DNA from: a virus
Virus record (IMG/VR): IMGVR_UViG_3300002835_000316
Coordinates: 1 to 47,897 of that record
Strand: one strand, 5' to 3'
DNA: 47,897 nucleotides
Shown: positions 3 through 31,000 of the stretch, piece by piece
Layout of the letters: each line of letters starts with the position of its first letter
Numbering within the stretch: position 1 is the stretch's first letter
The notes under the pieces: generated by a model
Seen by the model: only the letters and a program-made list of their open reading frames with translations
Told to the model about the DNA's origin: nothing
Database searches by the model: none
Position numbers and translations under genes: made by a program

Positions 3-221
3 ACCCCTGGTGCTCGAGACGATCGTCACAAACTGGACGCCGGAGCCGTCGAGTTTCCCGAGGAACTCGCAGGGCCGATCCCGATGGTGGAAACGATCCG
101 ACCCCGACCGCGGAAACCCGAGCCCCCCGACCGTGGAAACCCAAAAATTCTCACGATACCAACTGTCCGCCGACCCCCCGAACGTAACAACCCGCGGCGA
201 AAACCGCAGAAATTATTTTAG
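3..221 (+). CDS. Possible C-terminal end of an unknown protein (5' partial)
   Basis: An open frame enters from the left edge and ends at TAG 219-221. The readable 72 residues begin with an acidic, ordinary-looking stretch (EFPEELAGPIPMVET) and then become rich in proline and arginine (RPRPRKPEPPD), ending RRKPQKLF. The end lies just upstream of a good promoter for the next operon, as expected for the tail of a preceding gene. Two copies of the leader box found before the downstream genes lie inside this frame, so the second half may be leader DNA read by chance. No family is recognised. Confidence 0.3.
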   Translation, partial: TPGARDDRHKLDAGAVEFPEELAGPIPMVETIRPRPRKPEPPDRGNPKILTIPTVRRPPERNNPRRKPQKLF

Positions 222-223
222 GC

Positions 224-251
224 TTGACTCGCAACGTGCCGATGTTATATT
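224..251 (+). promoter_or_regulatory. Sigma70-like promoter for the left operon
   Basis: TTGACT at 224-229 and TATATT at 246-251 are separated by 16 bases, close to consensus for both elements. The promoter lies just after the preceding open frame ends and about 60 bases before the first complete gene. Confidence 0.65.
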
Positions 252-309
252 TCAGACGTGGCCGGCAGACCCCGGCCGTGGAAACGACGACCCCGTAAGA
301 GGAAACGAG

Positions 310-588
310 ATGACGACCAACGAAAAAAACGCTGCCATTAGCCGAATGATCGTCGACCGGGTCGCAGCCGGCGAAGAGCTGTCGGCGGCGATCGATGCCG
401 TTCTCGGCGCCGGCACCCATGCTGCCATCGTCGACGACGTCTACCGGGCGCTCGTCGCCCGGAATGTGCTCGAGCAGGTCTGCGAGAACATGGGCACCGA
501 CGCCGCCGATGAATACGAAAACCTCGAGACAATGACCGTCGACGACGTGGCCGACGAACTGACCTACCTCGCCGACTATCAAGGCTAG
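310..588 (+). CDS. Hypothetical acidic protein, 92 aa
   Basis: The start is the ATG directly after the ribosome-binding box AGAGGAAACGAG, giving MTTNEKNAAISRMIVDRV. The frame is open further upstream, but the leader boxes and promoter lie there, so the internal ATG is preferred. The protein is acidic and probably all-helical, with no transmembrane segment and no recognised family. It is the first complete gene after the left promoter, which suggests early expression. Confidence 0.7.
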   Translation: MTTNEKNAAISRMIVDRVAAGEELSAAIDAVLGAGTHAAIVDDVYRALVARNVLEQVCENMGTDAADEYENLETMTVDDVADELTYLADYQG

Positions 589-669
589 CCTACATACCAC
601 GACATCCGGCCGGTGGCGCGTTGCCCCCGACCGGCGGAACGATTCGACCCCGATAGAGGAAACGAGATC

Positions 670-1782
670 ATGAGCACGACGATTCAAAAGACCGACCTTG
701 AGACGATCGCCGCCGCCGGGCTGGGCCGGAAGGCGAAGACGGCTCACGAGACGATGCAGGGTACCGCGGTCGGCTTCGCCACCGACGGCGAGACGTGGGT
801 GGAGGTGGTCGGCGACGCCGCCCCCGACGCCTCCCCGGGCCGCGTGGGCGAGGTCGACGCCGCCCCCGTGTGTGCGTCGATCACCGCCGGCGCGACGATC
901 GGCGGCCGAGACTTTCGGCGGATCGTGGCCGGCATCGTTCCGGCGACCGACACCGAGAGCAGCCGCTACGCTCTCGGCGGTGTGCTCCTCGAGGTGGCGG
1001 AGGGGTCGATGCTCGCCGCGGTGGCGACCGACGGCCGCCGGCTCCACGTCGGCCACGTCCAGCCCACGACGATCCACGGGCAGGCCGCCCCGATCGTCCG
1101 GTCGGAACACTGGCAGGCGCTCGCCGCGGCTGTGCGGGCGGCCGTGCGGAAGCTGTGCGGCGCCTCCGGCCGTCGGCTCGACGCCGTGATCGACCGGGGC
1201 GCCCTGTCGATCCTGGTCGGCTCCCACAAGCCGACCGGCGGCGAGGTGGTCGTCATGACGTGGGAGTCGTCGACCGACGACGGCCACGGTCGGCCGGTCG
1301 TCGTGCGGGCCGCGGCGCTCGCCGTGGCGGGGCGTTTTCCGCGGTGGCGGGATATCAAGCCGGCGGCCGGGTCGCGTCTCACGATCGACGTGGGGCGGGT
1401 TGCCGATGCCGTGGCCGACTACGCTCCCCTGCATCGGGCGGCCGAGCGTGCCGGGCGGGCGGCGTGGAAACTCGAGCAGGAAGAGAAGAAGCGCCGCCGG
1501 CAGTATCACGGCGGCGAATACCGGCACCCCGCCGGCCTGGTGTGCACCATCGAGGGCATGAGCGGATGCGGCGCGGATTGGGCGGCGCCGGTGCCGGCCA
1601 CACCCGTGCGTGTGAAGCTCGATCACGCGTACCTCGCCGATGCCCTCGCCGGGGCGGCCGCGTGGGGGGCGACGACGGCCGACGTCGACGCCACCGACGA
1701 CACGTCGGCGGTGAGCATCTCCGCCGGCGGTGAGCACGGCCCCCAGTTCCTCGCCGTCATCATGCCCATGTGCATGGATTGA
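670..1782 (+). CDS. Divergent DNA polymerase III beta sliding-clamp homologue
   Basis: Beta clamps are ring-shaped dimers that encircle DNA and hold polymerases and repair enzymes on it. This 370-aa product has nearly the family length (366 in E. coli). Residues 82-127 match clamp domain 2: a helix FRRIVAGIVPATD, then RYALGGVLLE (compare RYYLNGMLFE) and VATDGRRLHV (compare VATDGHRLAV). Further on GRFPRWRDIKP matches GRFPDYRRVLP. The C-terminus has YLADAL and a terminal VIMPMCMD matching the clamp ending VVMPMRL. The first domain is much shorter and hard to recognise. The central insert (about 255-300) is charged. The start follows a leader box with GAGGAAACGAG. Clamp ancestry is seen in the motifs; a processivity role for phage replication is inferred. 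Confidence 0.82.
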   Translation: MSTTIQKTDLETIAAAGLGRKAKTAHETMQGTAVGFATDGETWVEVVGDAAPDASPGRVGEVDAAPVCASITAGATIGGRDFRRIVAGIVPATDTESSRYALGGVLLEVAEGSMLAAVATDGRRLHVGHVQPTTIHGQAAPIVRSEHWQALAAAVRAAVRKLCGASGRRLDAVIDRGALSILVGSHKPTGGEVVVMTWESSTDDGHGRPVVVRAAALAVAGRFPRWRDIKPAAGSRLTIDVGRVADAVADYAPLHRAAERAGRAAWKLEQEEKKRRRQYHGGEYRHPAGLVCTIEGMSGCGADWAAPVPATPVRVKLDHAYLADALAGAAAWGATTADVDATDDTSAVSISAGGEHGPQFLAVIMPMCMD

Positions 1783-1888
1783 TCGCTGACCCCCGAGCCG
1801 GCCCCGTCGCCCGCGGGCGGGGTCGAGTCGGCGGCCACCGTGGCCCCGTGGATGGAAACCAGAGAACCCCGTAGAAGGAAACGAGACG

Positions 1889-2197
1889 ATGAAACAGGAA
1901 TGCGTGACGATCGGAATGCAGGCCCGCGTGAAGATCGGCCAACGGCTCGCCGAGGTGACGGTGCTCCGGCGGCTCGAGGGCCGCGGGCGGGCCCGGTTCG
2001 AGTGTCGCACGAGCGACACTGGCCGGCTCGTGAAGGCGACCGCGGCCCGGCTGCGTCCGGTGCCGCCCCCGGCGGTGCGTGCGATGGTCGATCGGATGGT
2101 GGCGGCGTCGGTGGCCCGTGCCGACGTCGACGCGATCGTGCTCGATCCGGCGCCCGGCTTGGAGGCTTGGGCCGCGTGCCCGGTTGGAGCCTACTGA
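1889..2197 (+). CDS. Hypothetical protein, 102 aa
   Basis: The ATG follows the leader box with AAGGAAACGAG. The N-terminal half (VTIGMQARVKIGQRLAEVTV, then KATAARLRPV) reads like a small beta-barrel of the type often found in phage translation- or nucleic-acid-binding proteins. The second half is predicted helical and alanine-rich. No family is recognised. It is preceded by a pair of leader boxes. Confidence 0.7.
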   Translation: MKQECVTIGMQARVKIGQRLAEVTVLRRLEGRGRARFECRTSDTGRLVKATAARLRPVPPPAVRAMVDRMVAASVARADVDAIVLDPAPGLEAWAACPVGAY

Positions 2198-2276
2198 CCG
2201 GCCGCCCCTGGACCCGCCGGCGCCCGTGGCCGGCGGCGAGGGGGATGCCGATCAACCCCGAAGGAGGAAACGATAC

Positions 2277-2600
2277 ATGAGAATCCCCCCGACCGTAGAA
2301 ACCGAATACCGTCTCTCGCCGCGCGTCGTGCTCCGGCCCGGCGATCGGTTCAAGGCGAGCGCCGGGCCGTATTATCGGCTCGACGACGGCCGCCGCGTGC
2401 CGATGGCTGCGAGGGGCACGTTCGTCCTCGTGGAGATCGTCAGGCAGCGTACTCGCGTCTTTCTGCTGGCCTACGGCCGCGATGGATGGGCGCTCCTGCA
2501 CGTCGAGGGCCGGCGGCGGTCGCGTGTGCCGGGGCTCGTCTGCCGCCCGTACAAAATCCGGCGAGCCTCAAGGGTTGACACCCGGCGCGCCGATGCGTAG
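2277..2600 (+). CDS. Hypothetical basic protein, 107 aa
   Basis: It starts at the ATG after AAGGAGGAAACGATAC. Its first codons contain another leader-box copy (2287-2302), read as PPTVET. The protein is basic, with beta-rich stretches (GTFVLVEIVRQRTRVFLLAYG) and an Arg-rich end. A promoter lies in its last codons. No family is recognised; a nucleic-acid-binding role would fit the charge but is not shown. Confidence 0.68.
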   Translation: MRIPPTVETEYRLSPRVVLRPGDRFKASAGPYYRLDDGRRVPMAARGTFVLVEIVRQRTRVFLLAYGRDGWALLHVEGRRRSRVPGLVCRPYKIRRASRVDTRRADA

Positions 2601-2603
2601 AGT
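2575..2603 (+). promoter_or_regulatory. Sigma70-like promoter inside the end of the preceding gene
   Basis: TTGACA at 2575-2580 and TAGAGT at 2598-2603 are spaced by exactly 17 bases. It lies about 80 bases before the next start codon and ahead of a paired leader box, so it probably gives a second transcript of the left operon. Confidence 0.65.
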
Positions 2604-2682
2604 ATCCGACAGATCAAGACAAGCAGGGGCAGCGTAGCCCCGACCGTGAGAACAATAGAACCCCGTAGAAGGAAACGAGATC

Positions 2683-2961
2683 ATGGCTGCGATGAAACGG
2701 TTTTACGAGGATTGTGCGGTGGCTGGACGGTGCCCGATCAGCCAGCGGACATTCAACTACCTGAACGACCTGGAGTCGATCGACGCCTCGATCGACTGGA
2801 TCGGCTACTGCGAGCACGACCACCGCAGTGCCGTCACCGGCCTGCTCGTGTCGCACGATTGCATCACGATGGAGTCGGCCCGCCGGCTCGTCGCGATCGG
2901 CTTGGCGAACGCGGAGATCGGTTCGTTCGTGGACAACTTCGGGGACTACTGCCCCGCCTGA
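2683..2961 (+). CDS. Hypothetical acidic protein, 92 aa
   Basis: Begins MAAMKRFYEDCAVAG after a perfect second leader box with its ribosome binding site. The protein is acidic and mostly helical, with a central stretch DWIGYCEHDHRSAVTGLL and a C-terminal NFGDYCPA. Cysteines and histidines are scattered rather than arranged as an obvious zinc site. It is the first gene after the promoter at 2575. No family is recognised. Confidence 0.68.
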   Translation: MAAMKRFYEDCAVAGRCPISQRTFNYLNDLESIDASIDWIGYCEHDHRSAVTGLLVSHDCITMESARRLVAIGLANAEIGSFVDNFGDYCPA

Positions 2962-3055
2962 CCGACTGCCGCCCCGGCTCGTTGCCTGGGCGGTTCGATG
3001 ATGGGATGATTTCACCGACCCCCGGATGGGGGGAACGATACGAAAGGGAACAACG

Positions 3056-3379
3056 ATGGCGACCGAAACGATGAAGCACACGGCGGCCCCCTGGACGATC
3101 CACTGGGGCATGGCGCAGGGTGGCGACGGCCACTGGATCATGGACGCGCAGGATCACGGCGAACTGTCGCGGATCGCGATGGTTGCTTTCCACGACGACA
3201 CTAGCGGCGACGAGACGCGGGCGAACGCGAAGGTGATTGGTGCGGCCCCCGAGCTGCTCGCGGCGCTGATGATCTGCTGCGACCAGTTGGCCGGGTGGGT
3301 CGATAGCGGCTCTGGCGATGCCCGCGACTTCTGGGCCGTGAAGATGGCGAAGGCCGCAATCGGTAAGGCGACGGCCTAA
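3056..3379 (+). CDS. Conserved phage protein of the 'NAKVIGAAPELLAAL' type, 107 aa
   Basis: The start MATETMKHTAAPWTIHWG follows AAAGGGAACAACG. An N-terminal 'H-T-x-x-P-W' stretch, a middle strand region, and the helix ANAKVIGAAPELLAAL are the marks of a very common family of small phage and prophage proteins whose function is unknown. Its presence supports the phage assignment. An ATG 30 bases upstream is possible but lacks a ribosome binding site. Confidence 0.72.
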   Translation: MATETMKHTAAPWTIHWGMAQGGDGHWIMDAQDHGELSRIAMVAFHDDTSGDETRANAKVIGAAPELLAALMICCDQLAGWVDSGSGDARDFWAVKMAKAAIGKATA

Positions 3380-3486
3380 CGACCCGCCCGCAACCCCCGG
3401 CCGGCGAAACGCTGGTACGGGGGCGACGGGCGGGCCGACGTGGCCCGGATCGTGGAAACCTAAAACCTAGAGATGAGGAGAGAAAA

Positions 3487-3723
3487 GTGTCATACGCGCA
3501 ATGCAAGATTGTGGATCATGCCGTGGAGTTCAAGCGGCTTTCATCGGGATACATTTCGGTCGGCGTCGATGGGTCGCTGGTCGGCAACTATGCCAACGAC
3601 GCAGAGGCGATCGTGGCTGCCCTCGAGCACGTTCGCATCGTCGAGCACATGCTGGAGCGGCCACTGCTCCCCAACAGCGTCCGCAAGACCTTGCGAGAAA
3701 TGGCGACGGCCAGCGTCGGCTGA
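3487..3723 (+). CDS. Hypothetical protein, 78 aa, GTG start
   Basis: A GTG start follows GATGAGGAGAGAAAA, a strong ribosome binding site. An upstream ATG at 3473 is in another frame. The product has a short beta hairpin region (RLSSGYISVGVDGSLVG) followed by two helices, the second containing ALEHVRIVEHMLE. No family is recognised. Two leader boxes (3395 and 3444) precede it. Confidence 0.62.
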   Translation: MSYAQCKIVDHAVEFKRLSSGYISVGVDGSLVGNYANDAEAIVAALEHVRIVEHMLERPLLPNSVRKTLREMATASVG

Positions 3724-3794
3724 CCCCGGCCTGTGGAAACGAGAGTTCGATTCAACCCTGCCGCCGCGTGCGGCGAAACCAGAGGAGATGGACG

Positions 3795-4142
3795 ATGATC
3801 TACTGGATTCTGACCGACATCGCCGGCGAGCATGGCCGGCGGCACGATGGCGACTGGGAGCCGCTCGAGCGGCGATCCCCGGCGAGCGACGAGGTGGAGC
3901 GGTTCCACCGCTACCGCGATGCCGTGGCGAAAGCGAAGAAGCTCAAGGCGAAGGACTGCCACTGCAAGCCGCTGAAGCAGGAGGGCATCGTGCTCTACTG
4001 GCGGCTGCCGGAGCGGGCCGGCGAGAGCGACCTGGCCGAGGTGATCGAGTTCAAGTCGAAGCGGCAGGCCGATGCGTGGAAGAAGCGGGCGATCGCAGAG
4101 GGCTGCGAGGTGATCGAGTGCCTGGGGACGGCGAAACGATAG
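3795..4142 (+). CDS. Hypothetical basic protein, 115 aa
   Basis: The ATG follows AGAGGAGATGGACG. The product is rich in lysine and arginine (AKAKKLKAKDCHCKPLKQ) and then alternates strands and helices (GIVLYWRLPE, LAEVIEFKSKRQADAWKKRA). The layout suggests a small alpha/beta fold. The gene lies between two leader-box regions and a 10-base spacer from the next gene, so those two are probably co-translated. No family is recognised. Confidence 0.62.
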   Translation: MIYWILTDIAGEHGRRHDGDWEPLERRSPASDEVERFHRYRDAVAKAKKLKAKDCHCKPLKQEGIVLYWRLPERAGESDLAEVIEFKSKRQADAWKKRAIAEGCEVIECLGTAKR

Positions 4143-4152
4143 GAGGCCGATC

Positions 4153-4335
4153 GTGACAAACAGACTCACCCCATACGAAGCAGGCTGGCTCACGATGCTC
4201 GTGGCCCGCGGGCTGGCGACGGAGGCCGAGGCCCGCGAGGCGATGCACCGCGTGGCCCAGGCGGCCGTGGACGAGCTGAACGCCAGGAGGGCCGCGAAAA
4301 AGCGGCTCAAGCGGCGGAAGCGAAACGACGATTGA
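4153..4335 (+). CDS. Hypothetical 60-aa basic protein, GTG start
   Basis: GTG start with AGGAGG directly upstream, 10 bases after the previous stop. The product is two helices followed by a strongly basic tail (RAAKKRLKRRKRNDD), as in small nucleic-acid-binding proteins. Without a recognised family this remains a suggestion. Confidence 0.58.
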   Translation: MTNRLTPYEAGWLTMLVARGLATEAEAREAMHRVAQAAVDELNARRAAKKRLKRRKRNDD

Positions 4336-4361
4336 CTACATAACGCGATTGTGGATAGCCT
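4332..4361 (+). promoter_or_regulatory. Sigma70-like promoter, -10 TAGCCT
   Basis: TTGACT at 4332-4337 and TAGCCT at 4356-4361, spaced by 18 bases, precede a leader box and the next gene. The same unusual -10 (TAGCCT) is used at 13766 and 24143 on the other strand. Confidence 0.55.
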
Positions 4362-4399
4362 ACAAACCCCGACCGTAGAAACCCAAGGAGGACGAGAAG

Positions 4400-4699
4400 A
4401 TGATTCTGCATGATGGCGAAACCGTTTACCTGTCGTTCACGTCAGCCGGCAACTACCGCGAGGCACCCCGTGCGTGGGTAACCGAGGCGATTGTGATCGA
4501 CGCCACGCACCGCGTCGTCCGCGAGCCGGAGAACGGCGACCGTGTCCGTGTGCTGTCAGATGTCGAAGGCGTCCACCAGTGCAAGGCGGCGGCGTGGGCG
4601 AGGTGCTCAAGCGAGTTGGCGGCGTTCGCGTCGTCCGTCCGTCTCAGGGCCGAGGAGTGCGCCGCCCAGGCCGCGAAACTTGAGGTCGCGGTAGCATGA
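4400..4699 (+). CDS. Hypothetical protein, 99 aa
   Basis: The ATG follows CAAGGAGGACGAGAAG, one of the best ribosome binding sites in the left operon. The N-terminal two-thirds is beta-rich (ETVYLSFTSAGNY, WVTEAIVIDATHRVV, DRVRVLSD) and the C-terminal third is one long alanine-rich helix. No family is recognised. A leader box (4367) lies before it and another (4701) directly after its stop. Confidence 0.68.
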   Translation: MILHDGETVYLSFTSAGNYREAPRAWVTEAIVIDATHRVVREPENGDRVRVLSDVEGVHQCKAAAWARCSSELAAFASSVRLRAEECAAQAAKLEVAVA

Positions 4700-4842
4700 C
4701 CCCCGACCGTTGGAACCAGTGCATCCGCGGCTTGCTGCTCGTCCGCCTCGGGCAAGAACTCGGGACGGACGGGCCGCTGGCGCGGGCTGTTCACGATTTT
4801 CTGGATGCCCTTATTGGCCTCGTCAGGTAGAATGCCACTGCT

Positions 4843-5118
4843 ATGACAACCATCGACACGAAAGACTATTACACGATGAGCCAGGCGGCCGTGAAGGCCG
4901 GCTGCCCGCGGCGTTCGCTCTACCGGATCATCGAGCGGCTTGGGGTCGACAGCATCGTCACGAGGGTGTTTGGGCGCAGCCTGATCCACAAGTCGAAGAT
5001 TCCGCTGATCCGGGCCGAGCACGCACCGCTGGGGTCGGATCGGCGGCACGAGATCGCCGTCGAGTACGGCCGCATGGGCGGCACGCAGAAGAAGATCAAC
5101 GCCGAGGCCAGGGGCTAG
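4843..5118 (+). CDS. Small helix-turn-helix DNA-binding protein, 91 aa
   Basis: The segment YYTMSQAAVKAGCPRRSLYRIIERLGV reads as a winged helix-turn-helix of the MerR/excisionase type: a 'tls eAA' helix, turn, then a recognition helix. The C-terminal part (YGRMGGTQKKINAEARG) is basic. It could be an excisionase-like architectural protein or a small repressor. The preceding 143 bases hold one leader box and a TAGAAT hexamer at 4831 but no clear -35. Its TAG stop shares the palindrome CTAG with the stop of the convergent HNH gene. Confidence 0.62.
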   Translation: MTTIDTKDYYTMSQAAVKAGCPRRSLYRIIERLGVDSIVTRVFGRSLIHKSKIPLIRAEHAPLGSDRRHEIAVEYGRMGGTQKKINAEARG

Positions 5119-8372: not shown

Positions 8373-8701
8373 CCATTGTCTTGTCCTGTCGGCTCATTCA
8401 TTCTAACAGTCCTGGCGGCCTCAAGGCGGGCTTCCCGCTCCGTTTGCGACCACCCGGCGCGGATGCGTGCCGTCTCGAGTCTGATCTCGGCGGGGGTCGG
8501 CAGATAGAACTCAGGCTCCGCTCGCTCGCCCAATCCGAGCGATGCCGCGAACTCACGGACGCCGTCTGGCGTCATCCCCATCTCTTCGCAGATTTCTGCG
8601 AACGTCGAGTCGCCGGCCCAGAGCCTGTGCAGCTTGCGCTTCTCGTTGGCGCGTCGCTTGTTCCTTGCGATCTCATCCTCGGTGAGTCGCCTGCGGTTCA
8701 T
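8369..8701 (-). CDS. Helix-turn-helix-like protein with a 'WSxxERxxR' tail, 110 aa
   Basis: ATGA overlap with the preceding glycosyltransferase. After a basic N-terminus (NRRRLTEDEIARNKRRANEKRK), STFAEICEEMGMTPDGVREFAASLGL reads as a helix-turn-helix. The tail ARIRAGWSQTEREARLEAAR shares a motif with two other small proteins of this operon (RARWSDEERESRR and QKRWSEEERHARG). DNA binding is likely; its target is unknown. Confidence 0.6.
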   Translation of the reverse strand: MNRRRLTEDEIARNKRRANEKRKLHRLWAGDSTFAEICEEMGMTPDGVREFAASLGLGERAEPEFYLPTPAEIRLETARIRAGWSQTEREARLEAARTVRMNEPTGQDNG

Positions 8702-9561
8702 TTCCAGTGCGCGATGTACCTAGAGCCTGGGTTTAGATAAAGCTGGTAGCCGGCCGCCTGCATATGCCGGTGCAGGAAGACGTGCTCGCAGTCGCCGCCC
8801 TCGTAGTGGACGCCTGGGGCCAAGATCGCGTCGGCCATGTAGACACAGAGGCCGCCGAACGCCGAATTCATCGGCACCGGCGGGGCGCCGACAGGGAAGA
8901 GCAGCATCGAAAACCATGCGAAGCCGATTTCCTCGCGGCGGTCACGCCACCAGTTCGGCCGCGCCGCCCATGAGTCGTACTGCGCGATGTGCGGCGGTTC
9001 GCCCTCTTCGCGGTGCTCTGCCCACAAACTAAAACTCGCCATGCCGCCGGGGCCGAGGGTCGACTGCTGTGTCTGCTTGTAGGCTAACCACCCGATCGAG
9101 TTGAAAATGCCGTCGACGCTGAAGCCGCCGTGTGGGTCGAGGTCGAGCACGATCACCCACGTCGCGTGCCGCCCCCGGCCGCGAATCCAGTCGAGGCACT
9201 TGTTCCGGCAGTGTGCCAGCCTCTCAGTCCGCTCCGGCTCAAACCCCCGAGAGTCGATGCCGCCGAGGGTGTCGTGCTCCACGGTGAACCACGGATTGCT
9301 GGCCTCAAACCCGTCAAGGCACTCAGCGGTCCCGTCGGTCGAATCGTTCTCGTAGACGTACATGACGCACGACAAGAACTCAGGGACGGCCTCGGCTACG
9401 AGAGCCAGCGTGTTCGCCAGATGCGGCATCGCGTTGCGGGCGATCCCGACGATCACGGCGTCTCCATGCTTCGCCGCTTCGCGGCCAAGCGCGACCATCT
9501 TCGTGTAGGAGTCCTCGAACTCCTTGTCCACCGGCCAGACGTCTTCAGGTCGTCGCAGCAC
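8698..9561 (-). CDS. GT-A fold glycosyltransferase, 287 aa
   Basis: A GTG start follows GGAGGCTCT. The sequence YVYENDSTDGTAECLDGF is a typical nucleotide-sugar-binding segment of GT2-like enzymes. RLAHCRNKCLDWIRG leads to VIVLDLDPHGGFSVDGI, which contains the metal-binding DxD in the form seen in CAP59/CAP64-like (GT69-type) transferases. The C-terminal EGGDCEHVFLHRHMQAAGY matches the 'GEDvdlhrRlraaGy' acceptor segment. The substrate is unknown: virion protein, host surface polymer or modified DNA base are possible. It overlaps a second glycosyltransferase by 17 bases. Confidence 0.8.
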   Translation of the reverse strand: MLRRPEDVWPVDKEFEDSYTKMVALGREAAKHGDAVIVGIARNAMPHLANTLALVAEAVPEFLSCVMYVYENDSTDGTAECLDGFEASNPWFTVEHDTLGGIDSRGFEPERTERLAHCRNKCLDWIRGRGRHATWVIVLDLDPHGGFSVDGIFNSIGWLAYKQTQQSTLGPGGMASFSLWAEHREEGEPPHIAQYDSWAARPNWWRDRREEIGFAWFSMLLFPVGAPPVPMNSAFGGLCVYMADAILAPGVHYEGGDCEHVFLHRHMQAAGYQLYLNPGSRYIAHWK

Positions 9562-10189
9562 AGAGCCTCCGAATCTCGCCGAGGCGGTCGGCGTACTGCG
9601 TCACATGAACGAATGCCGGCTTGCCAGGCCGGTGGCGGTCTGCGGGGTGATCGTTCCACCGCGACGGCAGAAACTGCGTCCGGTCGCGGAGTTCCGTGGC
9701 GGCCTTGAGCGTTGCGTGCGGCCACCCTCCTGTGAGGGTGATCTCATAGCCCATCATCGTCATCACGGCTGCCTGCTCCCACCACGGGTGGTCTGCGAAC
9801 GCCTCGCGCATCTTGTCCCACGCGAACTCGAGCCACGGGATCATCTCCCGCGTGACGAGCCACACGCCGCAGTTCGGCACTAGGCCGCACTCAGTCTCGT
9901 GCTCGACCACGGCCTGCCAGGCGTCGGCCTCCAGCCAGTCGAAGATGTTCTCCGACGAGTCGACGATCACGACGTCGGCGTCGAGCCAGAGAACCCGATC
10001 GTGATCGGCAAGGGCGGCGCCGATGTTCGGCACCTTCATCCACGACGGCGGCGCCTGTGTGCTAGCGAGGTTCACGCAGTAACACTCCAGCCCATGCCTC
10101 TGGGCGTAGGCGTCCATGACGGGGAGCGTGTGCGCCGCCATCCTGGCGTATTCCGTCCCTCGCCATCCGGTCATCAGGATGTCGCTCAC
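9545..10189 (-). CDS. GT-A fold glycosyltransferase (GT34-like), 214 aa
   Basis: The GTG start overlaps the methyltransferase stop as GTGA, giving MSDILMTGWRGTEYARMAAH. HDRVLWLDADVVIVDSSENI contains the DxD metal site typical of galactosyl- and mannosyltransferases of the GMA12/MNN10 type. NCGVWLVTREMIPWLEFAWD and WWEQAAVMTMMG match the later conserved 'N.G.fl.r...w....l..W' and 'EQ.a' segments. A terminal HVTQYADR is close to the conserved histidine region. The family is clear in outline; the sugar and acceptor are not. Confidence 0.8.
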   Translation of the reverse strand: MSDILMTGWRGTEYARMAAHTLPVMDAYAQRHGLECYCVNLASTQAPPSWMKVPNIGAALADHDRVLWLDADVVIVDSSENIFDWLEADAWQAVVEHETECGLVPNCGVWLVTREMIPWLEFAWDKMREAFADHPWWEQAAVMTMMGYEITLTGGWPHATLKAATELRDRTQFLPSRWNDHPADRHRPGKPAFVHVTQYADRLGEIRRLCAATT

Positions 10190-10710
10190 TGCTTCCACCC
10201 CACGAACAGATGCCGCCCCTTCGCGTCGGCTGTCGACGTCCACCTAGCGAAGCGATTGATCAGATCGTCTTGGTGCGGCTGGGAAAGTTGCTCCCAGTCG
10301 TGGATCGCGAGGATGCGGGCAATCTCGGCGCAGGCGACGTACTCGTCCGCCGCGGCGTCGCCGTGGACGGCGTCGTGGAAGACGAGGTCGAACGTCTCGC
10401 CGGCCCGCTTGCACCGTGCCAGGTATGCCGCAGCGTCATCCCAGACGGGGAAGATGTTCCTGATTCCGAAGTTCTTCCAGTAGGCGACCCGCGTCTCCTG
10501 CGGCACGGTGTCGCAGAGGTCGACGGCGACGACGCGGGCGTCGGGGGCCGCTAGAGCCATCGCGGCTGTTGAGAATCCTCGGTGGCTCCCCAACTCCAGA
10601 ATGTTCTTGCAGCCGTGCGCGGCGATGCTGGCGAGTTGCAGAATGTGCCCCTTCCAGGTGGTCATCGGGTGCGAATCGTCGATGTCGCGGCAGTAGTCGC
10701 TGGCATTCAC
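10186..10710 (-). CDS. Class I SAM-dependent methyltransferase, 174 aa
   Basis: GTG start overlapping the VRR-NUC stop (GTGA). Motif I is ILELGSHRGFSTAAMALA, followed by ARVVAVDLCD, where the acidic residue would bind the ribose of S-adenosylmethionine. FDLVFHDAVHGDAAADEYV and ILAIHDWEQ resemble the Methyltransf_24/CmcI-type small-molecule or sugar O-methyltransferases. It lies directly upstream of two glycosyltransferases, so sugar methylation is a reasonable guess, but a DNA target cannot be excluded. Confidence 0.78.
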   Translation of the reverse strand: MNASDYCRDIDDSHPMTTWKGHILQLASIAAHGCKNILELGSHRGFSTAAMALAAPDARVVAVDLCDTVPQETRVAYWKNFGIRNIFPVWDDAAAYLARCKRAGETFDLVFHDAVHGDAAADEYVACAEIARILAIHDWEQLSQPHQDDLINRFARWTSTADAKGRHLFVGWKQ

Positions 10711-10997
10711 CCGAGGCTCTCCAAAAATGCCTTGGCGTCCCCGGCCGACCGCACGATGGCCACCGGGCACCCGACCCCAATCAACTCACGCATCCGATGC
10801 TCCTGAATCCGCGTCGGCTCCTCGCCCGGGCGTTTCGCCTCGAGCCAGACCGCACGGCCCTCCCTGATGCACAAAACATCGGGGAGGCCGGCAACGGAAA
10901 ACTGGCTGCCGTGATTCTTCATGGTCCAGTACCCCAGCGACCGGGCCACGGCCATGACGTTCGCGACGATCGTCTTCTCGAGCGGTGGTTTCTTCAC
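10707..10997 (-). CDS. VRR-NUC domain nuclease, 96 aa
   Basis: VRR-NUC proteins are PDDEXK nucleases, some of which cut Holliday junctions or flaps. The core is complete: KNHGSQFSVAGLPDVLCI gives the aspartate after GxP, RAVWLEAKRPGEEPT gives the ExK pair, and IQEHRMREL gives the conserved glutamine helix. At 96 residues it is a stand-alone minimal domain as found in many phages. A role in processing replication or packaging intermediates is likely. Confidence 0.88.
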   Translation of the reverse strand: MKKPPLEKTIVANVMAVARSLGYWTMKNHGSQFSVAGLPDVLCIREGRAVWLEAKRPGEEPTRIQEHRMRELIGVGCPVAIVRSAGDAKAFLESLG

Positions 10998-12292: not shown

Positions 12293-12585
12293 CACTCCCC
12301 ACCCTTCAACGGCTTCGTCCGAAAGAACCCGCGATACTCCGGGTGCTCGTCCATGAACAGCCGCGCGTAGTACGCGATGAAGTTGTTGCTGATCTTGAAG
12401 TCGCCGCCCAGCGTCTCGACCGTCGTCTCCCAACGAATGCGGTTTACGATCAGCCAGGCACTCAGCTTGCGGTGGCCGCGGTCGATCGCCTCGAACGTAA
12501 ACCGTTTGAATAGGTCGTAGACCTGCGGGTTGGCCGCGTGCCAGTCGAGCCAGCGTTGACGTTCTGTGGAGATTTGGACGAGCAT
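12292..12585 (-). CDS. Conserved phage protein, 97 aa
   Basis: Starts MLVQISTERQRWLDWHAANP with a TGATG overlap. The sequence follows a pattern I recognise from many phages: 'F..NP.VY..F...A', 'S.w.I..RIRWET', 'DFKISNNFIAYYARLFM', 'HPEYRGFFRTK'. Its function is not established. Conservation of several aromatic residues suggests a small folded, possibly nucleic-acid-related protein. Confidence 0.68.
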   Translation of the reverse strand: MLVQISTERQRWLDWHAANPQVYDLFKRFTFEAIDRGHRKLSAWLIVNRIRWETTVETLGGDFKISNNFIAYYARLFMDEHPEYRGFFRTKPLKGGE

Positions 12586-13301
12586 CACTTCCCCATCACC
12601 TTCGCGATCCACTCCCGAAACAGCGACAACCGCGTGTGCCCCATCTCCTCGCCTCGACGACTTCGCAGCGGCCCTCTGTCGGCCATCGTGAACGACGCGA
12701 TCCCGACGAGTCGGCCCGCCGCGAACATCGGCCCGCCGGAGTCTCCCGGCGAAATGCAGAACTCCATCGGCGACAAGCCGCCGGCCGTGCAGACGATGAG
12801 ACTGCGCTCAACCCGCTCGACGGCGTTCGTCCCGGCCCGCAGGCGGCCGTCGGCCGTCGTGTACCCCGTCCCCAGCCGCCCGTGGAGGCCGTAGCCGGCC
12901 ACGCTCACGATGTCGCCGACCTCGGCGTCTTGCTCTGTCGGCAATGGCGGATAGAACGACAGCCCGAACGGCTCTGCCACGCGGAGCAGGGCCAGGTCGT
13001 TCCAGCCCAGGTTCTTTGAGTCGAAGTCTGGATGCACGACGATCTCGACGGCATCGTGCGTCAGGTTGATGGTGACGCAGTCGGCCCCGTGGACGACGTG
13101 TCCTGCCGTCAGTGCCCAGTGGTCGTCGATAAGCGTCGCCGACGCGAAGGCGATGTGCCCGTCGGTGCCGGTGACGGCGAGTTTCGCCGTGTACGGCCGA
13201 AAGCCCTCCGCGTAATCAAGGTATACCGAATCGGGTATACGCTCGTCCGTCGTGCCGGCGAGGGCTGCGGAGGCGAATAAGGCTGCGACGACGGCCTTCA
13301 T
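12585..13301 (-). CDS. Secreted trypsin-like serine protease, 238 aa
   Basis: The ATG overlaps the previous stop (ATGA) and gives a clear signal peptide, [16 protein letters not shown], with likely cleavage near residue 15. The chymotrypsin-fold triad is complete: His68 in WALTAGHVVHGA, Asp102 in GWNDLALLRV, Ser188 in ISPGDSGGPMF. The glycine-rich stretch VGIASF follows as expected. It is the third gene of the csrA operon, after a small membrane protein. Because it is exported, its substrate is likely in the host periplasm or envelope, or it acts at lysis. No inhibitor or pro-domain is visible. Confidence 0.88.
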   Translation of the reverse strand: MKAVVAALFASAALAGTTDERIPDSVYLDYAEGFRPYTAKLAVTGTDGHIAFASATLIDDHWALTAGHVVHGADCVTINLTHDAVEIVVHPDFDSKNLGWNDLALLRVAEPFGLSFYPPLPTEQDAEVGDIVSVAGYGLHGRLGTGYTTADGRLRAGTNAVERVERSLIVCTAGGLSPMEFCISPGDSGGPMFAAGRLVGIASFTMADRGPLRSRRGEEMGHTRLSLFREWIAKVMGK

Positions 13302-13405
13302 TCGTCCCTCGTCATGTAGGGGAACAGGGTGCAGTAAAACGCCGCCCCGACGAGAGCGAGGAGCGTGCCGACGTTGAGCCAGACGTGAAGGAGGTTGTCG
13401 ATCAC
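13298..13405 (-). CDS. Small single-pass membrane protein, 35 aa
   Basis: GTG start overlapping the csrA stop (GTGA) and stop overlapping the protease start (ATGA). The product [20 protein letters not shown] continues [15 protein letters not shown], one transmembrane helix with a short polar tail. Coupling on both sides supports a real gene. It could be a small lysis-type peptide or an anchor for its neighbour; neither is shown. Confidence 0.6.
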
Positions 13406-13566
13406 TTCTTCGCCTCCGCAGGCAGAAGCTCCGTCCGCATGATCTCCGTATCCGGCGGCGCCTTGATCGCAAGGCGAACGCTGCCGTCCCAAATCTTCGT
13501 CACGACGATTTCGATGTCGTCGCCGATCTTGATGCGCTCTCCGCGCTTTCTCGTCAGAACGAGCAT
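13402..13566 (-). CDS. csrA: CsrA/RsmA RNA-binding regulator, 54 aa
   Basis: CsrA is a dimeric post-transcriptional regulator that binds GGA motifs in mRNA leaders and blocks or stabilises translation. The product is [20 protein letters not shown] followed by [27 protein letters not shown]. The opening MLVLTRK with Leu4 and Arg6, the IxIGDDIxI strand, and [15 protein letters not shown] with the critical arginine match CsrA almost residue for residue. Ribosome binding site AAAGGAGTCAGCC. It is the second gene downstream of the operon promoter. A phage copy may control phage mRNAs or the host CsrA network. Confidence 0.93.
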
Positions 13567-13794: not shown

Positions 13795-14242
13795 GCCACG
13801 TTTCGCAGGCGGTTTTGACCGCCGGCCGCTTGTGTTCCTTGGCTGCCCAGATGACGTAGTCCAGCCCCCGCGGCAAGGCCACGGCCTCGTCGATCGTCAG
13901 GCCGACAAAGCGACCGTCTCGGAATTGGAACTCCGTTGGCTTCGGCTCGAGGTGGCCTTTGATCACGGGAACCCACTGGCACGTCAGGCAGAAGCAGCAC
14001 TGGATCAGCCATTCGCCACGGTCTTCGTGGATGATGTCGTGGGCGCTGCCACGGCAGAGGGTGTCTGCGCACTCGTGGGTGTGATCGAGGCGGCCGAGGG
14101 TTTTGAGGGCAGGCTGCGGCGGTTTCGCCTTATAGATTGGCCTATTTTCATCGCCGGGGGCGTCATTTTGGGCGATTTTGATTGTCTTGCGCGCGCGCTT
14201 GCGCGGCGCGTCTTCTTGCGGGATGTCAAAAAGTAGACTCAC
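13769..14242 (-). CDS. Hypothetical zinc-binding protein, 157 aa
   Basis: The GTG start overlaps the helicase stop (GTGA), giving MSLLFDIPQEDAPRKRARK. The central region HTHECADTLCRGSAHD and QCCFCLTCQWVP holds a likely Cys/His metal site. The C-terminal part (ETWLARNQSAG) is helical. It follows the helicase directly, so a role in replication is possible. No family is recognised. Confidence 0.62.
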   Translation of the reverse strand: MSLLFDIPQEDAPRKRARKTIKIAQNDAPGDENRPIYKAKPPQPALKTLGRLDHTHECADTLCRGSAHDIIHEDRGEWLIQCCFCLTCQWVPVIKGHLEPKPTEFQFRDGRFVGLTIDEAVALPRGLDYVIWAAKEHKRPAVKTACETWLARNQSAG

Positions 14243-15888
14243 AGGGGCAGCTCCATTGCGTAAGGTTCGTCGGATTCGCAGACAACCAGCCTCTCCTTGG
14301 CCCGCGTGACGGCGACATATTCAATTCGGCATTCCTCGTCAAAGCAACGCGGGTCAAGTTCTCGCTCCCGCTCGACTCGGGCCGCCGTCTCCGTGGACAG
14401 GATGACATCCTGGGCCTCCATCCCCTTGGCCCCATGAATCGTCGAAAGCCTGACGTTCGGCTTCGTCGCCACGTCGGGGCCGTGTCTTTTGGCTGCTCCG
14501 TACCACTTCCCGCCGCCGTCGAGCAGGGCGGCCCAACGTCCATCGGCAATCATCCCGGCCATCTCAGGCGTCACCCCACCGAGCCCCACGATCTCGTCGG
14601 GCATGATGAAATCGATGTCTTCTCGCCGGCCGCTCGTCCAGGCCGTTTTTTCGCCGTGCCGGAGCAAAACCTCTTTTCCGGCGGCCTTCGTGGGCGTCAT
14701 TCCGATGGCTGCGGCCCAGTCAACGCCGGAAACCCCATTGCCATGCTGAAGCTTCCAGTAGGTGTTGTAGGCGATCATGGCCTTGGTGTCCGACTTCTCG
14801 TTGATGTATGCGTGCGGAATCTTCCGAGACTCGAGCATCGCCGCGAACTTTGAGAGCGAGTATTTGCATCTCGCGAGCACAAGCGTTGTGCGGCTTCCGT
14901 CGACCTGGCTGATGGCCCGCTCAATCGACGGCTCGCTGACAACGCAGCCATCGTGGGACGCCGGGGCGATTCCGCGGTCAAAGTACCCCTCCCGCATCCG
15001 CCGCAGGCAACGCTCGCCGAGAGCCATGACCGCTGGGGGGCATCTCCACGACTGTGGCATCGTCCGCTCTTTGTCTACATCCCACCCCATGAAGTTGCGG
15101 TAATCAGCCCCGCCGAAGCCGAAGACACTTTGAAATGGGTCTGCGGCGAGAAACGCCCACTTGACGCCGTCGGCGTAGGCCAGCCGTCGGCAGACGGCGT
15201 CAAGCAGCTTCGACGCATCCTGGGCCTCGTCGAAAATCCACGCCTGAACCCCGGGTGGCGTCGGCCCCTCTGGCTCCACCCACTCCGGCCCATCGAGTCC
15301 GAACTTGATGCCGGCAAACCGCCCCAAGATGTCGACGAAGTCCGACTTGCCGTCGGCTCGCTTGCTGTCTTCAAACTTCTTCACGAAATACTTCACCGTG
15401 CCGTAGGACGGAACGTCCAGCCCAGCTATCGACTTCTCGCGGTGGACGGCCTCCAGCGGCTCGACGCGGTTTCTGGAGATGTCCCAGAGCGTCAGCGCCG
15501 ACGCCGCCTCCTCGTCTCCGATGCACGCAGAAAACCCGCTGTCGTCGATCTTCTTCCAAGAGACGTTCACCCGCAGCCGGTCGGCCACCCACTTTGACGC
15601 CTTGTCGTCGCCGGCGAGCAGGTCATCTGTCTTGATCTGTAGCATTTTGTGGCAGGTCGAGTGTGCCGTCCTGAACCACCCAGAACGCTCCAGAAGGCTG
15701 GGGTGGCAGTCGAAGGCAGCAGAGGCCCTGGCGACCATCTCCTCTCTGGCGGCCCTCGTGAGGCTCGCAAAGCCTATCGCCGACGGGTCGTCGCCAATCC
15801 GCTCCATGATCTTCCGCATGATGGCAAGCAGCTCGGTCGTCTTTCCGGTCCCGGCGCCGCCGATCAGCCTCGCAATTCCGACGTCCAT
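14239..15888 (-). CDS. UvrD/PcrA-like SF1 DNA helicase, 549 aa
   Basis: SF1A helicases unwind DNA 3' to 5' using ATP. Walker A is GGAGTGKTT (residues 10-18). RTAHSTCHKML follows as motif Ia, WIFDEAQDASKLL (DEAQD 220-224) is motif II, and LAADPFQSVFGFGGAD is motif III. Late motifs are RLSTIHGAKGMEAQDVIL and EYVAVTRAKERLVV. The start at ATG 15888 has AAAGGA upstream; a longer form from 15936 is possible. It is shorter than UvrD (about 720) and lacks large insertions. It is likely the phage replication or recombination helicase, next to the prim-pol gene. Confidence 0.9.
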   Translation of the reverse strand: MDVGIARLIGGAGTGKTTELLAIMRKIMERIGDDPSAIGFASLTRAAREEMVARASAAFDCHPSLLERSGWFRTAHSTCHKMLQIKTDDLLAGDDKASKWVADRLRVNVSWKKIDDSGFSACIGDEEAASALTLWDISRNRVEPLEAVHREKSIAGLDVPSYGTVKYFVKKFEDSKRADGKSDFVDILGRFAGIKFGLDGPEWVEPEGPTPPGVQAWIFDEAQDASKLLDAVCRRLAYADGVKWAFLAADPFQSVFGFGGADYRNFMGWDVDKERTMPQSWRCPPAVMALGERCLRRMREGYFDRGIAPASHDGCVVSEPSIERAISQVDGSRTTLVLARCKYSLSKFAAMLESRKIPHAYINEKSDTKAMIAYNTYWKLQHGNGVSGVDWAAAIGMTPTKAAGKEVLLRHGEKTAWTSGRREDIDFIMPDEIVGLGGVTPEMAGMIADGRWAALLDGGGKWYGAAKRHGPDVATKPNVRLSTIHGAKGMEAQDVILSTETAARVERERELDPRCFDEECRIEYVAVTRAKERLVVCESDEPYAMELPL

Positions 15889-16029
15889 GGCCCGAAAATC
15901 CTTTCTCGGTGTTTTGTGGCCCGGTTTTTGGCCCACTGTAAGTAACTGTCAACACTGAACTTGCATCAAATTGGCCCGCAAACCCGCGTTCCCGCGCTCG
16001 TTATTGGAAAAAAATTTTCAATTTGGCCC
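15889..16029 (-). promoter_or_regulatory. AT-richer intergenic region with repeated GGGCCAAwwTTG boxes
   Basis: The 141 bases between the prim-pol stop and the helicase start are clearly richer in A+T. On the minus strand they hold two near-identical direct boxes, GGGCCAAATTG and GGGCCAATTTG, an A/T-rich partial palindrome (TTGAAAATTTTTTTCCAA) and TTGACA at 15952-15947 with no good -10 at 17 bases. A promoter or operator for the helicase transcript, or a terminator for the gene before, fits; the sequence does not decide. Confidence 0.4.
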
Positions 16030-17706
16030 CTAACTAATAGGCGCGGCTTGGTTCTCAGGGTGGGCGATGTTCTCAAGGTGAGTGACGTGGGCCTGGGTCC
16101 AGACGATGTACCGGCGGCGTACACCGGCGTCCGTCCGAATCCGCTCGATGCGGAACTCCTGCTCGCCGGAGGCCGCCAGCATCCGCCTTTTGAGGGCGAT
16201 CATCTCCCCCTCGCCGAGCCTGACCTTTCTGGTCTTCTGGATGTCCTCGAAGACACGGTTCCACGAGAAGTAGAGTTCAAACTCACCGTCCTTGTTCCTG
16301 ACCCACGAAGCCTTGCCGGAGGGGTGCGGCGACGTATCGTCGGAGTCCGGGTCTGGCGGCGCAGTGCTGGAGAGGGCGTCCAGAAGCCAGCCGGCGACCT
16401 GAGCAAACCGCTGCTGCTCTGCCGGGGGCCACTCTTCCGTCTTGTCGTCCATCAACTTGACCTTCAGCCCGCGAACGCGAGTCCACTGCTTCTCGCCCTC
16501 CTTCTTGAAGGAATAGCCGTTCCAGATTTTCGCCCACTCCTTGGGATTTGGATCGGTGACGTCGATCGTCCCCGTGGCCTCCAGAATCTTTCTGGCTACC
16601 GAGATCGGGCTTGACCAGTCTGCGCTGGACAGGCTGACGTGGACGTAGTCGCTCTTCCCGTCGCTGTTTGCGACAACTGGAACGTGCAGCCGAAACTCCT
16701 TCGGATCAGAGTGAACGACGGTCAGTTTCCACATCCCTGGGAACCACTCACCACTCCTGAACTCTAGCCCGCTGGCAGCGTGGACATTGTCTTTCCTGGC
16801 CTGCTCGACCTTGGCCTCGGCGTCCGGGTCGGTGCTGGCGACCTTCGTGGCACCAGCGGCGCGGGCCTTCATGCCCCACCGCAACTGACCGATCCAGATG
16901 CTCCGCAGCTCGTCGTCTTTGAGCGGAGGATTGCACTGCATCTTGTTGAGCGCCCTCATCATCAAAAGCACGTTTTGCTGCTCGGTGGCATCATGCGGGT
17001 CGCGCATTCGCATGATTTCCGAAGAAATCCATGAAACCATTGAGTCGTTCCGTTCGCCTTCACCGACGATTCGCTCGTAGAGAGTGTTCTTTGTGATGAC
17101 GCCCTCGCCGCTCATCTCGCCGGAGCAGGCGGCAAGCACGGCCAGAACGAGCGCCTCCGGCATCGGTGCGGCTTCGACCTCGTCGGGTGAACGGCCAGCA
17201 TCCCACTGGTAGATGCGGCCAGTGTGATGACGGCTCGGGGGAATGATCGACTGCGTCTGCTTGCCGCCGCCGCCGAAGCGCACCTCGAGTCCGCCGATCT
17301 TCTTCACGCTCTTGGGAACGGAAATGAGCCGCTCGTCCAGAATCCAGAGCCTGTGGCCGCCGCGGTTCGATGAGTATCCGATTGTCTTGGCGTCAATCAG
17401 GCCGAACTTCTTCGCGGTCGCGAGCGACTTCTCATCATCCCACTCTGTGTCGCAAAGACCGCTGGCCGGTCCCATCGGCAAACCGATGTTCCATCGTTCG
17501 TCGTTCTCAAACCAAGACGCGATGACTTCCTCGTCTGTCGTGATGTGCTTTAGCCAGTCGTCTTCAATAGGGTGCTTTCCAGGCGTTGCGCAGCCGTGGC
17601 CGCGGTAGCACATGCAGCTACCGTCCTCTTGCATCCCGTAGTTTTTGACCATCGGCCAGCCGAACTCTGCGGCGTAGTGCGCCGCTGCCTTGAAGATGTC
17701 GCTCAT
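16030..17706 (-). CDS. Bifunctional primase-polymerase (AEP prim-pol with PriCT-1-like region), 558 aa
   Basis: Prim-pol enzymes of the archaeo-eukaryotic primase type make primers and can extend DNA. Near the N-terminus, AAHYAAEFGWPMVKN and CATPGKHPI are the usual opening; NIGLPMGPASGLCDTEWDDE holds the catalytic acidic residues (Asp86, Asp90 region), and SSNRGGHRLWI holds the catalytic histidine (118). Around residues 215-275, GERNDSMVSWISSEI to NPPLKDDELRSIWI matches a PriCT-1 module. The last 250 residues are not assigned, and no helicase domain is fused, unlike many plasmid and phage prim-pols. Start ATG overlaps the preceding nuclease stop. Confidence 0.85.
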   Translation of the reverse strand: MSDIFKAAAHYAAEFGWPMVKNYGMQEDGSCMCYRGHGCATPGKHPIEDDWLKHITTDEEVIASWFENDERWNIGLPMGPASGLCDTEWDDEKSLATAKKFGLIDAKTIGYSSNRGGHRLWILDERLISVPKSVKKIGGLEVRFGGGGKQTQSIIPPSRHHTGRIYQWDAGRSPDEVEAAPMPEALVLAVLAACSGEMSGEGVITKNTLYERIVGEGERNDSMVSWISSEIMRMRDPHDATEQQNVLLMMRALNKMQCNPPLKDDELRSIWIGQLRWGMKARAAGATKVASTDPDAEAKVEQARKDNVHAASGLEFRSGEWFPGMWKLTVVHSDPKEFRLHVPVVANSDGKSDYVHVSLSSADWSSPISVARKILEATGTIDVTDPNPKEWAKIWNGYSFKKEGEKQWTRVRGLKVKLMDDKTEEWPPAEQQRFAQVAGWLLDALSSTAPPDPDSDDTSPHPSGKASWVRNKDGEFELYFSWNRVFEDIQKTRKVRLGEGEMIALKRRMLAASGEQEFRIERIRTDAGVRRRYIVWTQAHVTHLENIAHPENQAAPIS

Positions 17707-19614: not shown

Positions 19615-20061
19615 TCAACCAACCGTGACGTGTCGGAGCCTCGGAGCGACGTACTCGCCCACGAGTCCCTCGAACGGCGTCCCGGCAGACCAGGGCTGGC
19701 TGGCATCCGTGCCAGCCTCCCTTGACTGCTCCTTCAAGAAGGACTTCAGCCTCGCTGTGTTGACGCTTGTCAACGCCTCCAAGCATCCAGCCTTCCGAGC
19801 GGCTTCCATGACCGCCTCCTTCGTGGCCTCCGTGACACTGCACGAGTGCTCCCACTCGACACGCCAGCTCCGTCCTGCGACCCGGACTCCGTCCAGCCGC
19901 TGCGTTTGCATTTCCTCGACGGCGAGCCGCTCCAGATGCGTGCGGCGCTTTTTCAGCGTCTCGATCTGGCCGTCGAGTTCCTTGATCTGCTTGTCCACGT
20001 CGGTGATCTCAGCGAGCACCGGCTGTAGTGTTGTGTCGGCTAAAACCTCTGATGATGACAT
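19615..20061 (-). CDS. Coiled-coil phage protein, 148 aa
   Basis: Start ATG with GAGGTAGTCG upstream, overlapping the end of the SF2 helicase gene by 53 bases. Residues 15-50 (DVDKQIKELDGQIETLKKRR) form a coiled coil. GVRVAGRSWRVEWEHSCSV is a short beta region seen in other phage proteins of this type, and a helical domain follows. It may be a partner of the neighbouring helicase or nuclease. No name can be given. Confidence 0.62.
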   Translation of the reverse strand: MSSSEVLADTTLQPVLAEITDVDKQIKELDGQIETLKKRRTHLERLAVEEMQTQRLDGVRVAGRSWRVEWEHSCSVTEATKEAVMEAARKAGCLEALTSVNTARLKSFLKEQSREAGTDASQPWSAGTPFEGLVGEYVAPRLRHVTVG

Positions 20062-22435: not shown

Positions 22436-23314
22436 ATGCTACTCCGCGACCTCCTTCGCGACGTTTACGCGCCGCTGAAGGGCATCTGCGACCGCACGAT
22501 CGAACTGTACCAGTTCACCATCGACGCCTACGGGCAAGTTCTCGGCCGCGAGCCGACGCTCGCCGACCTCGAGGAGCTGTCGGTGGCTAGATTCCTCGCC
22601 CAGCGTGTGCGGACGCGGTCGCCGGCCACCGCGGCGAAGGACCGCAGCCAGCTCCGTGCCCTCTGGGAGTTCGCCTCTCGCCGCAAACTCGTCGACACCT
22701 GGCCGACGATCCCGCTGATCCGCGTGCCGGAGCGTGTCCCTGAAGCCTGGATGACCGACGAGATGAAGCGGCTCCTGGCCTCTGCGGCACAGGAAACCAC
22801 CGCCTACGATGGCATCCCGGCGTCGCGCTGGTGGACGGCCCTGATACTTCTCGCCTACGACTCAGGCGAGCGCGCGTCGGCTCTGGTCGCCCTCCGGTGG
22901 GAGAACGTCCGTGGCTGCAACGTGATCTTCCGTGCCGAGGACAGGAAGGGCCGCCGCCGCGACATCCTCCGCGAGATCAGCGTTCACACCGCCGACGCGA
23001 TCCTGGCGATCAAGGGCGACCGATCACCAGGCGACCTCGTCTTCCCGTGGCCGCGGTGCCGATCGTACCTCTGGCGGCGGCTGGAGATCATCCTTGAGCG
23101 GGCGGGGCTGCCGGCGGGCCGGAAGGACAAGTTTCACCGCATCCGCAAGACGACGGCCTCCTACTACCAGGCCGCGGGCGGGTCGGCCCAGTGGCTGCTC
23201 GACCACGCCGACCCGGCGACGACGAGGAAATACCTTGACCCCAGGATCGTGCGGGGGCAGCCTGCGCCGGAAATCATCCCGCCGATTGGTTTGCCTCCAG
23301 CAGCCGCGGGGTGA
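22436..23314 (+). CDS. Tyrosine recombinase/integrase, 292 aa
   Basis: Tyrosine recombinases cut and rejoin DNA through a phosphotyrosine. The N-terminal SAM-like core-binding region (ELYQFTIDAYGQVLGREP) is followed by the catalytic domain: Arg146 in YDSGERASALVALRW, a basic residue near 171, His234-x-x-Arg237 in FHRIRKTTAS, His257 in WLLDHADPATT and Tyr266 in RKYLDP. ATG 22436 is used because a stop lies just upstream in frame; the SD before it is weak. Its last 41 bases overlap the end of the opposite recombinase. Confidence 0.9.
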   Translation: MLLRDLLRDVYAPLKGICDRTIELYQFTIDAYGQVLGREPTLADLEELSVARFLAQRVRTRSPATAAKDRSQLRALWEFASRRKLVDTWPTIPLIRVPERVPEAWMTDEMKRLLASAAQETTAYDGIPASRWWTALILLAYDSGERASALVALRWENVRGCNVIFRAEDRKGRRRDILREISVHTADAILAIKGDRSPGDLVFPWPRCRSYLWRRLEIILERAGLPAGRKDKFHRIRKTTASYYQAAGGSAQWLLDHADPATTRKYLDPRIVRGQPAPEIIPPIGLPPAAAG

Positions 23315-30808: not shown

Positions 30809-31000
30809 CTAGTCGTGCCTTCCTAGCCACTGCGGTGGCGGGTTGTTTTCCATCATCGCGACCCGGTACTTGAGCCGCTCGATCTCCTCCAGCGCCCGGC
30901 CCAGGGCTGCTGCGAGGGTGCCGTTCGCTGCCGTCCAGGAGTTCGGCGGGCCGTATTTGTTCACCAGCAGCCACGCTCGTTGGATTTCGTCGTTGGTCAT
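30809..31000 (-). CDS. Hypothetical 63-aa helical protein
   Basis: ATGA overlap with the metallophosphoesterase stop. Begins MTNDEIQRAWLLVNKYGPPN and contains a helix LGRALEEIERLKYRVAMMEN, probably a short coiled coil. It precedes the dNMP kinase without a gap. No family is recognised. Confidence 0.55.
   Translation of the reverse strand: MTNDEIQRAWLLVNKYGPPNSWTAANGTLAAALGRALEEIERLKYRVAMMENNPPPQWLGRHD

Follow-up and report, generated by a model that had tools for sequence, protein, structure and literature searches.

The window analysed here, one linear IMG/VR viral record of 47,897 bases, encodes a reduced sliding clamp of the DnaN family in which both canonical ring-interface faces are lost and the peptide pocket is kept. 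Our leading reading, which we hold tentatively, is that this is a non-canonical, pocket-bearing clamp that would compete for host clamp-binding proteins, a function that we infer.

Assignment to the beta-clamp family

670..1782, + strand: reduced DnaN-family clamp gene, with its ATG start at 670 and stop at 1782, 370 aa

The first-pass annotation had placed this product in the beta-clamp family from four segments, RYALGGVLLE (residues 99-108), VATDGRRLHV (118-127), GRFPRWRDIKP (221-231), and VIMPMC (363-368), and all four are present as claimed. Searched as a single sequence, the ORF matched phrog_947 ('processivity factor') at E = 5e-10, DnaN in the PDB at E = 0.01, and the Pfam central domain DNA_pol3_beta_2 at E = 5e-4, which falls under that family's cut-off. 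At the level of sequence comparison, such single-sequence evidence for the clamp family is weak, and that obtained with relatives is decisive. Specifically, a profile built from full-length clamps only matched the window clamp at E = 5.4e-35, in pieces (profile positions 128-272 and 316-368), which upholds the family placement; in the profile control, 8 of 500 shuffles reached E < 0.01, about chance level. A chance match or a false ORF is ruled out by the profile match (E of 5e-35), the relatives, and the dN/dS given below, and the ORF is a genuine DnaN homologue.

Relatives, selection, and host

As a single query against viral contigs and GenBank phages, the window clamp found no relatives. 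They were reached via the neighbouring UvrD-like helicase, which led to 57 related viral loci. The 48 helicase-related records searched held two clamps, one of the same reduced form (G034), with 57% identity over its whole length, and one full-length (G042/L068). An alignment of the window clamp with these two relatives (A1) found more phage clamps, as well as planctomycete chromosomal DnaN. The reduced form occurs in five loci, namely the window, L065 (= L059), L066 (partial), L067, and L092, which form a clade with support of 100/100; the full-length L068 is its sister (83/82), and the branches are long. In the closest pair, L065 and L066, dN is 0.06 and dS is 0.33, for a dN/dS of ~0.18. Because the five loci form one clade and the closest pair has this dN/dS, the reduced clamp is under purifying selection, not decaying. 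The long branch and the accompanying loss of a module could be expected of a functionless, decaying remnant of a full clamp, but the open frames at all five loci, the dN/dS of the closest pair, and the retention of the pocket residues already disfavour that explanation, to which we give almost no credence. As for the host, L092 sits in a metagenome-assembled genome (MAG bin72) that also holds a planctomycete-type chromosomal DnaN (L162), and, for this reason, the relatives point to a planctomycete.

Loss of the second domain 1 module

Each DnaN domain consists of two similar modules, which in domain 1 are beta-alpha-beta units. The AlphaFold2 model of the window clamp (pLDDT 86.5, pTM 0.85) matched solved DnaN chains with a Z of 26.5 over 299 residues (rmsd 2.5), so that the clamp fold, whose absence would have refuted the first-pass annotation, was obtained. 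The parts of the protein are as follows.

691..819, + strand: first domain 1 module (residues 8-50), kept and folded, pLDDT 90-95
820..870, + strand: junction (residues 51-67) with the second domain 1 module missing, from profile and alignment; the L068 model has this module
871..1368, + strand: domain 2 (residues 68-233); the region of its second helix is lengthened, as it is in L068
1390..1494, + strand: domain 3 helix of 35 residues (241-275) in the AlphaFold2 model, replacing the short Ile272/Leu273 helix

In E. coli numbering, domains 2 and 3 are present, and 48 of 60 residues align in the first domain 1 module, as opposed to 14 of 58 in the second. The description of domain 1 as strongly reduced was thus accurate, with the first module kept and the second absent, and the protein does not have the three complete two-module domains of a canonical DnaN clamp. 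Missing are ~44 residues of E. coli 61-118, including the dimer face Ile78/Arg103/Phe106. In the model, residues 10-49 form a short helix and three strands, followed by one short strand and then domain 2. An invariant GRK in this first module aligns with E. coli Gly23-Arg24, and Arg24 is a DNA contact in E. coli. Identification of the module draws on the predicted model and the alignment; the corresponding profile piece keeps one register across four members and is not significant as a sequence match by itself. Within the module, L065 and L066 show a dN/dS of ~0.12. The long domain 3 helix has a charged end, EEKK and then RRR.

The AlphaFold2 model of L068, obtained likewise, has a complete domain 1, with the second strand-helix-strand set at 69-108, and a domain 3 helix of 13 residues, compared with 35 in the window clamp. 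It matched DnaN with a Z of 36.9 over 355 residues, and the difference in alignment length from the window clamp is, in these predicted models, about the size of one module. The missing module does not appear to be encoded separately, as a profile of E. coli 61-120 found no match at E <= 1 among the 314 window ORFs.

A lost ring interface and a retained pocket

The core of the E. coli dimer packs Ile78 and Phe106 against Ile272 and Leu273, with additional ion pairs, and the same source lists the residues of the clamp pocket (PMC11139829), which we located in the window clamp by alignment.

964..975, + strand: pocket RYAL (E. coli Arg152, Leu155)
1027..1044, + strand: pocket TDGRRL (E. coli Thr172-Leu177)
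1330..1356, + strand: pocket GRFPRWRDI (E. coli Pro242, Arg246, Val247)
1621..1632, + strand: pocket subsite II, DHAY (E. coli Asn320, Tyr323)
1756..1770, + strand: pocket VIMPM (E. coli Val360-Met364)

With 14 planctomycete chromosomal clamps as the reference for conserved sites, the window clamp keeps the consensus at 13 of 16 positions of the hydrophobic peptide-binding pocket, at 1 of 11 positions of the domain 1-domain 3 dimer interface, and at 40 of 107 other sites in domains 2 and 3 (Fisher test: pocket versus other, p = 0.002; pocket versus interface, p = 0.0003). Specifically, Ile78 and Phe106 are absent, and positions 272/273 are Lys-Lys. Summed over four members of the reduced clade, the counts are 57/64, 4/44, and 150/428, respectively. 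Full-length phage clamps keep 5-8 of the 11 interface residues (L069, L071, L077, and L080), and, because L068, the closest full-length sister, keeps just 3, a replacement interface may exist.

This raises the main rival to the competitor reading, namely a clamp that still works but closes into a new ring. Its subunits would meet through the long domain 3 helix and what is left of domain 1, and the resulting trimer, or dimer of reduced size, would tether either host Pol III or the phage prim-pol to phage DNA. It holds that place because the first domain 1 module is retained, constrained, and carries the residue aligned with Arg24. The same features count against a pure pocket decoy, which would not need that module, and shorter phage homologues do without it. 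Further, every member that has the region shows the helix change, and several phage homologues depart from the canonical interface. However, when distant members are compared, the helix ranks with the more variable parts of the protein (28-42% identity), which would be unusual for a ring seam, and the phage genomes supplied neither a clamp loader nor an excess of clamp-binding motifs, as set out below. We regard a new ring as rather unlikely, though it deserves serious consideration.

Genome context and the search for partners

16030-17706: AEP prim-pol (PF09250, E = 1e-19)
14239-15936, - strand: UvrD-like helicase
20009-21412: SNF2/DEAD-type helicase
30997-32157: exonuclease (PHROG match)
22436-23314, + strand: tyrosine integrase, occurring at about 60 related loci
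310..588, + strand: small ORF of 92 aa upstream of the clamp gene
625..663, + strand: two start-associated repeat copies (625-640 and 648-663) directly upstream of the clamp gene

As the first-pass annotation had stated, searches of the window gave no polymerase of family A, B, or C, and 14 other virus records gave none either; all of these records, the window's included, are linear and possibly incomplete. Similarly, the clamp-loader family PF13177 (DNA_pol3_delta2) was not found in 19 linear, possibly incomplete records, and a search of 11 further records of this kind, which carry full-length phage clamps, turned up no polymerase of family A or C. The right end of the window holds head-tail adaptor and head-closure genes, and the contig seems to stop inside the head module; the portal and terminase genes therefore probably lie beyond the record. 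Phage proteins were considered as pocket ligands and rejected, since their clamp-binding motif counts were near those of shuffles (3 versus 1.9, 2 versus 3.5, and 3 versus 2.8). One match, QAWIF, lies in the UvrD-like helicase and resembles a helicase motif. The prim-pol contains none of the motifs listed, and the earlier suggestion that the clamp serves that enzyme is not supported. With no polymerase or loader found and no excess of motifs in phage proteins, host proteins are the likelier ligands of the pocket.

The clamp gene is one of a series of small + strand ORFs (310-5118), with most of the rest of the genome read in the opposite direction, and this arrangement fits an accessory role in host takeover better than a core replication role. 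An AGAGGA resembling a ribosome-binding site, at 655-660, precedes the clamp ATG, and a 31-residue stretch of the 92-aa upstream ORF recurs ahead of the clamp in L067 and L092. Two further small genes near the clamp, at 2277-2597 (+) and 4153-4335 (+), are common to L065, L067, and L068 (59-69% identity) and are possible partners of the clamp module. The tyrosine integrase, read opposite to the surrounding replication genes and present in so many related loci, suggests that these phages are temperate.

Against an expectation of 1.2 copies, the window contains the repeat CCCCGACCGTRGAAAC 19 times. The first 4.7 kb (79-4716) accounts for 15 copies, all of these on the + strand, mostly between small genes or just upstream of them. 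Copies beside an ATG carry AGAGGAAAC or AAGGAAAC, and relatives have arrays with 21-26 bp spacing (L065 286-395; L068 7872-7963). The placement is like that of the start-associated sequences of cluster K mycobacteriophages, from which the repeat differs in sequence (PMC3203893). A repeat module confined to clamp-bearing phages was rejected, as the exact 16-mer turned up in 27 contig stretches, and the majority of the searched records that contain it have no clamp. Elsewhere in the window, a stand-alone protein of 275 aa (26242-27069, -) matches a domain of large baseplate wedge/virion proteins, and two glycosyltransferase-like genes adjoin a methyltransferase-like gene, along with a gene for a trypsin-like protease (8698-10770, -; 12585-13472, -).

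A proposed competitor for host clamp-binding proteins

Because the pocket is kept but the ring-closing parts are lost, the protein may bind or divert host replication machinery. In the competitor reading, a DnaN-derived protein would have given up the canonical head-to-tail dimer and retained the peptide-binding pocket. Without the canonical interface, it would exist as a monomer or a loose oligomer, and its host-like pocket would bind host proteins with clamp-binding motifs, above all the delta subunit of the clamp loader and Pol III alpha. It could thereby compete with the host clamp, such that host replication is slowed or the bound proteins are diverted to phage DNA. An engineered monomeric E. 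coli beta, I272A/L273A, has lost the same interface positions with its pocket intact, binds delta ~50 times tighter than the dimer does, and cannot tether Pol III (PMC11139829). By analogy, a natural protein like it would compete effectively for the loader, although the E. coli variant is a laboratory mutant with a complete domain 1, unlike the window clamp.

Among the roles listed by the first-pass annotation, poisoning of or competition with the host clamp fits the anatomy best, and recruitment of host Pol III as an ordinary clamp would do is weakened, since both canonical ring-interface faces are lost. Poisoning in the narrower sense of a subunit that forms a dead heterodimer with host DnaN, or caps an open clamp, could build on the host-like fold and pocket; with both of its own interface faces altered or missing, however, the window clamp presents no canonical partner surface to the host clamp, and we consider this very unlikely. 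A hub for repair or recombination proteins, with MutL-, MutS-, or translesion-polymerase-like ligands in place of a replication role, would be compatible with the pocket, which is the common docking site for all such ligands (PMC11139829), but no observation singles out repair partners, and we judge it improbable.

Comparison with known clamps

Like E. coli beta and planctomycete chromosomal DnaN, the window clamp has the domain 2-3 fold, the first domain 1 module, and the peptide pocket; unlike them, it has no second domain 1 module, has lost the canonical dimer residues, and has a charged domain 3 interface helix that is almost three times as long. The full-length DnaN homologues of phages (L068, L069-L090, and those of Aurantimonas phage AmM-1, Rhizobium phage 16-3, and Microcystis phage Mae-JY04) are also phage encoded, and no polymerase of family A or C was found with them in the IMG/VR records examined, but they have a complete domain 1. 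Since the full annotation of AmM-1 likewise has a processivity factor (a full-length clamp gene) and primases with no polymerase, the highlighted pairing of a clamp with no phage polymerase stands for the window but is not in itself unusual.

Short phage homologues, comprising Rhodococcus phage REQ2 Orf51 (266 aa), BFVD entries of ~202-208 aa, and L091, are more reduced than the window clamp, which keeps two full domains and half of domain 1; REQ2 Orf51 and L091 are reduced like it, with pocket-forming segments retained. REQ2 Orf51 (L207 36591-37391) matched the Pfam DnaN central domain at E = 5e-6, just above the cut-off, phrog_947 at E = 2e-15, and the clamp profile at 9e-8. Its families, phrog_12598 and phrog_3007, are labelled 'RusA-like Holliday junction resolvase', a label that, judging by these matches, looks wrong, as the families appear to be short clamp homologues. 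L091 (743-1432, 230 aa) retains mainly the pocket segments TDGRRL and FPNWLRVIP, and the distant L086 (5846-6766, 307 aa), outside the clade, has a short domain 1, with 1/11 interface and 13/16 pocket residues; as queries against viral contigs, each matched itself only.

E. coli also makes a shorter DnaN product, beta*, which is the C-terminal part of the clamp without a full domain 1 and is reported to be active; as an internal product of the host gene, unlike the phage-encoded window clamp, it offers a lead only. Twort Gp168 is a phage protein that targets clamp function, as proposed for the window clamp, but it binds the DNA channel of the host clamp and is not reported there as a clamp homologue (PMC11139829). 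On truncated clamps of phages, or on the shorter E. coli product, the literature searched offered nothing on point, and we found in it no description of a clade in which the pocket is held but precisely the domain 1 half that closes the ring, along with the domain 3 residues opposite, is lost. Clamps encoded by phages are already known, including cases in which no polymerase is annotated, as are much shorter phage homologues; the new part is the form with the pocket kept and the ring interface lost.

More speculatively, and at a strength that we would call doubtful, phages may have repeatedly stripped the clamp to a pocket-bearing unit incapable of a canonical ring, a docking module or decoy that captures the host replicase and clamp loader, with the present clade as an intermediate step of reduction. 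The usual view of sliding clamps is of ring proteins that must encircle DNA to function. If a natural homologue under selection has kept the docking pocket and lost the ring seam on both sides, docking would be separable from encircling, and the protein would reveal either a new way for phages to take over host replication or a new way of building a ring, both of which could be tested with one purified protein.
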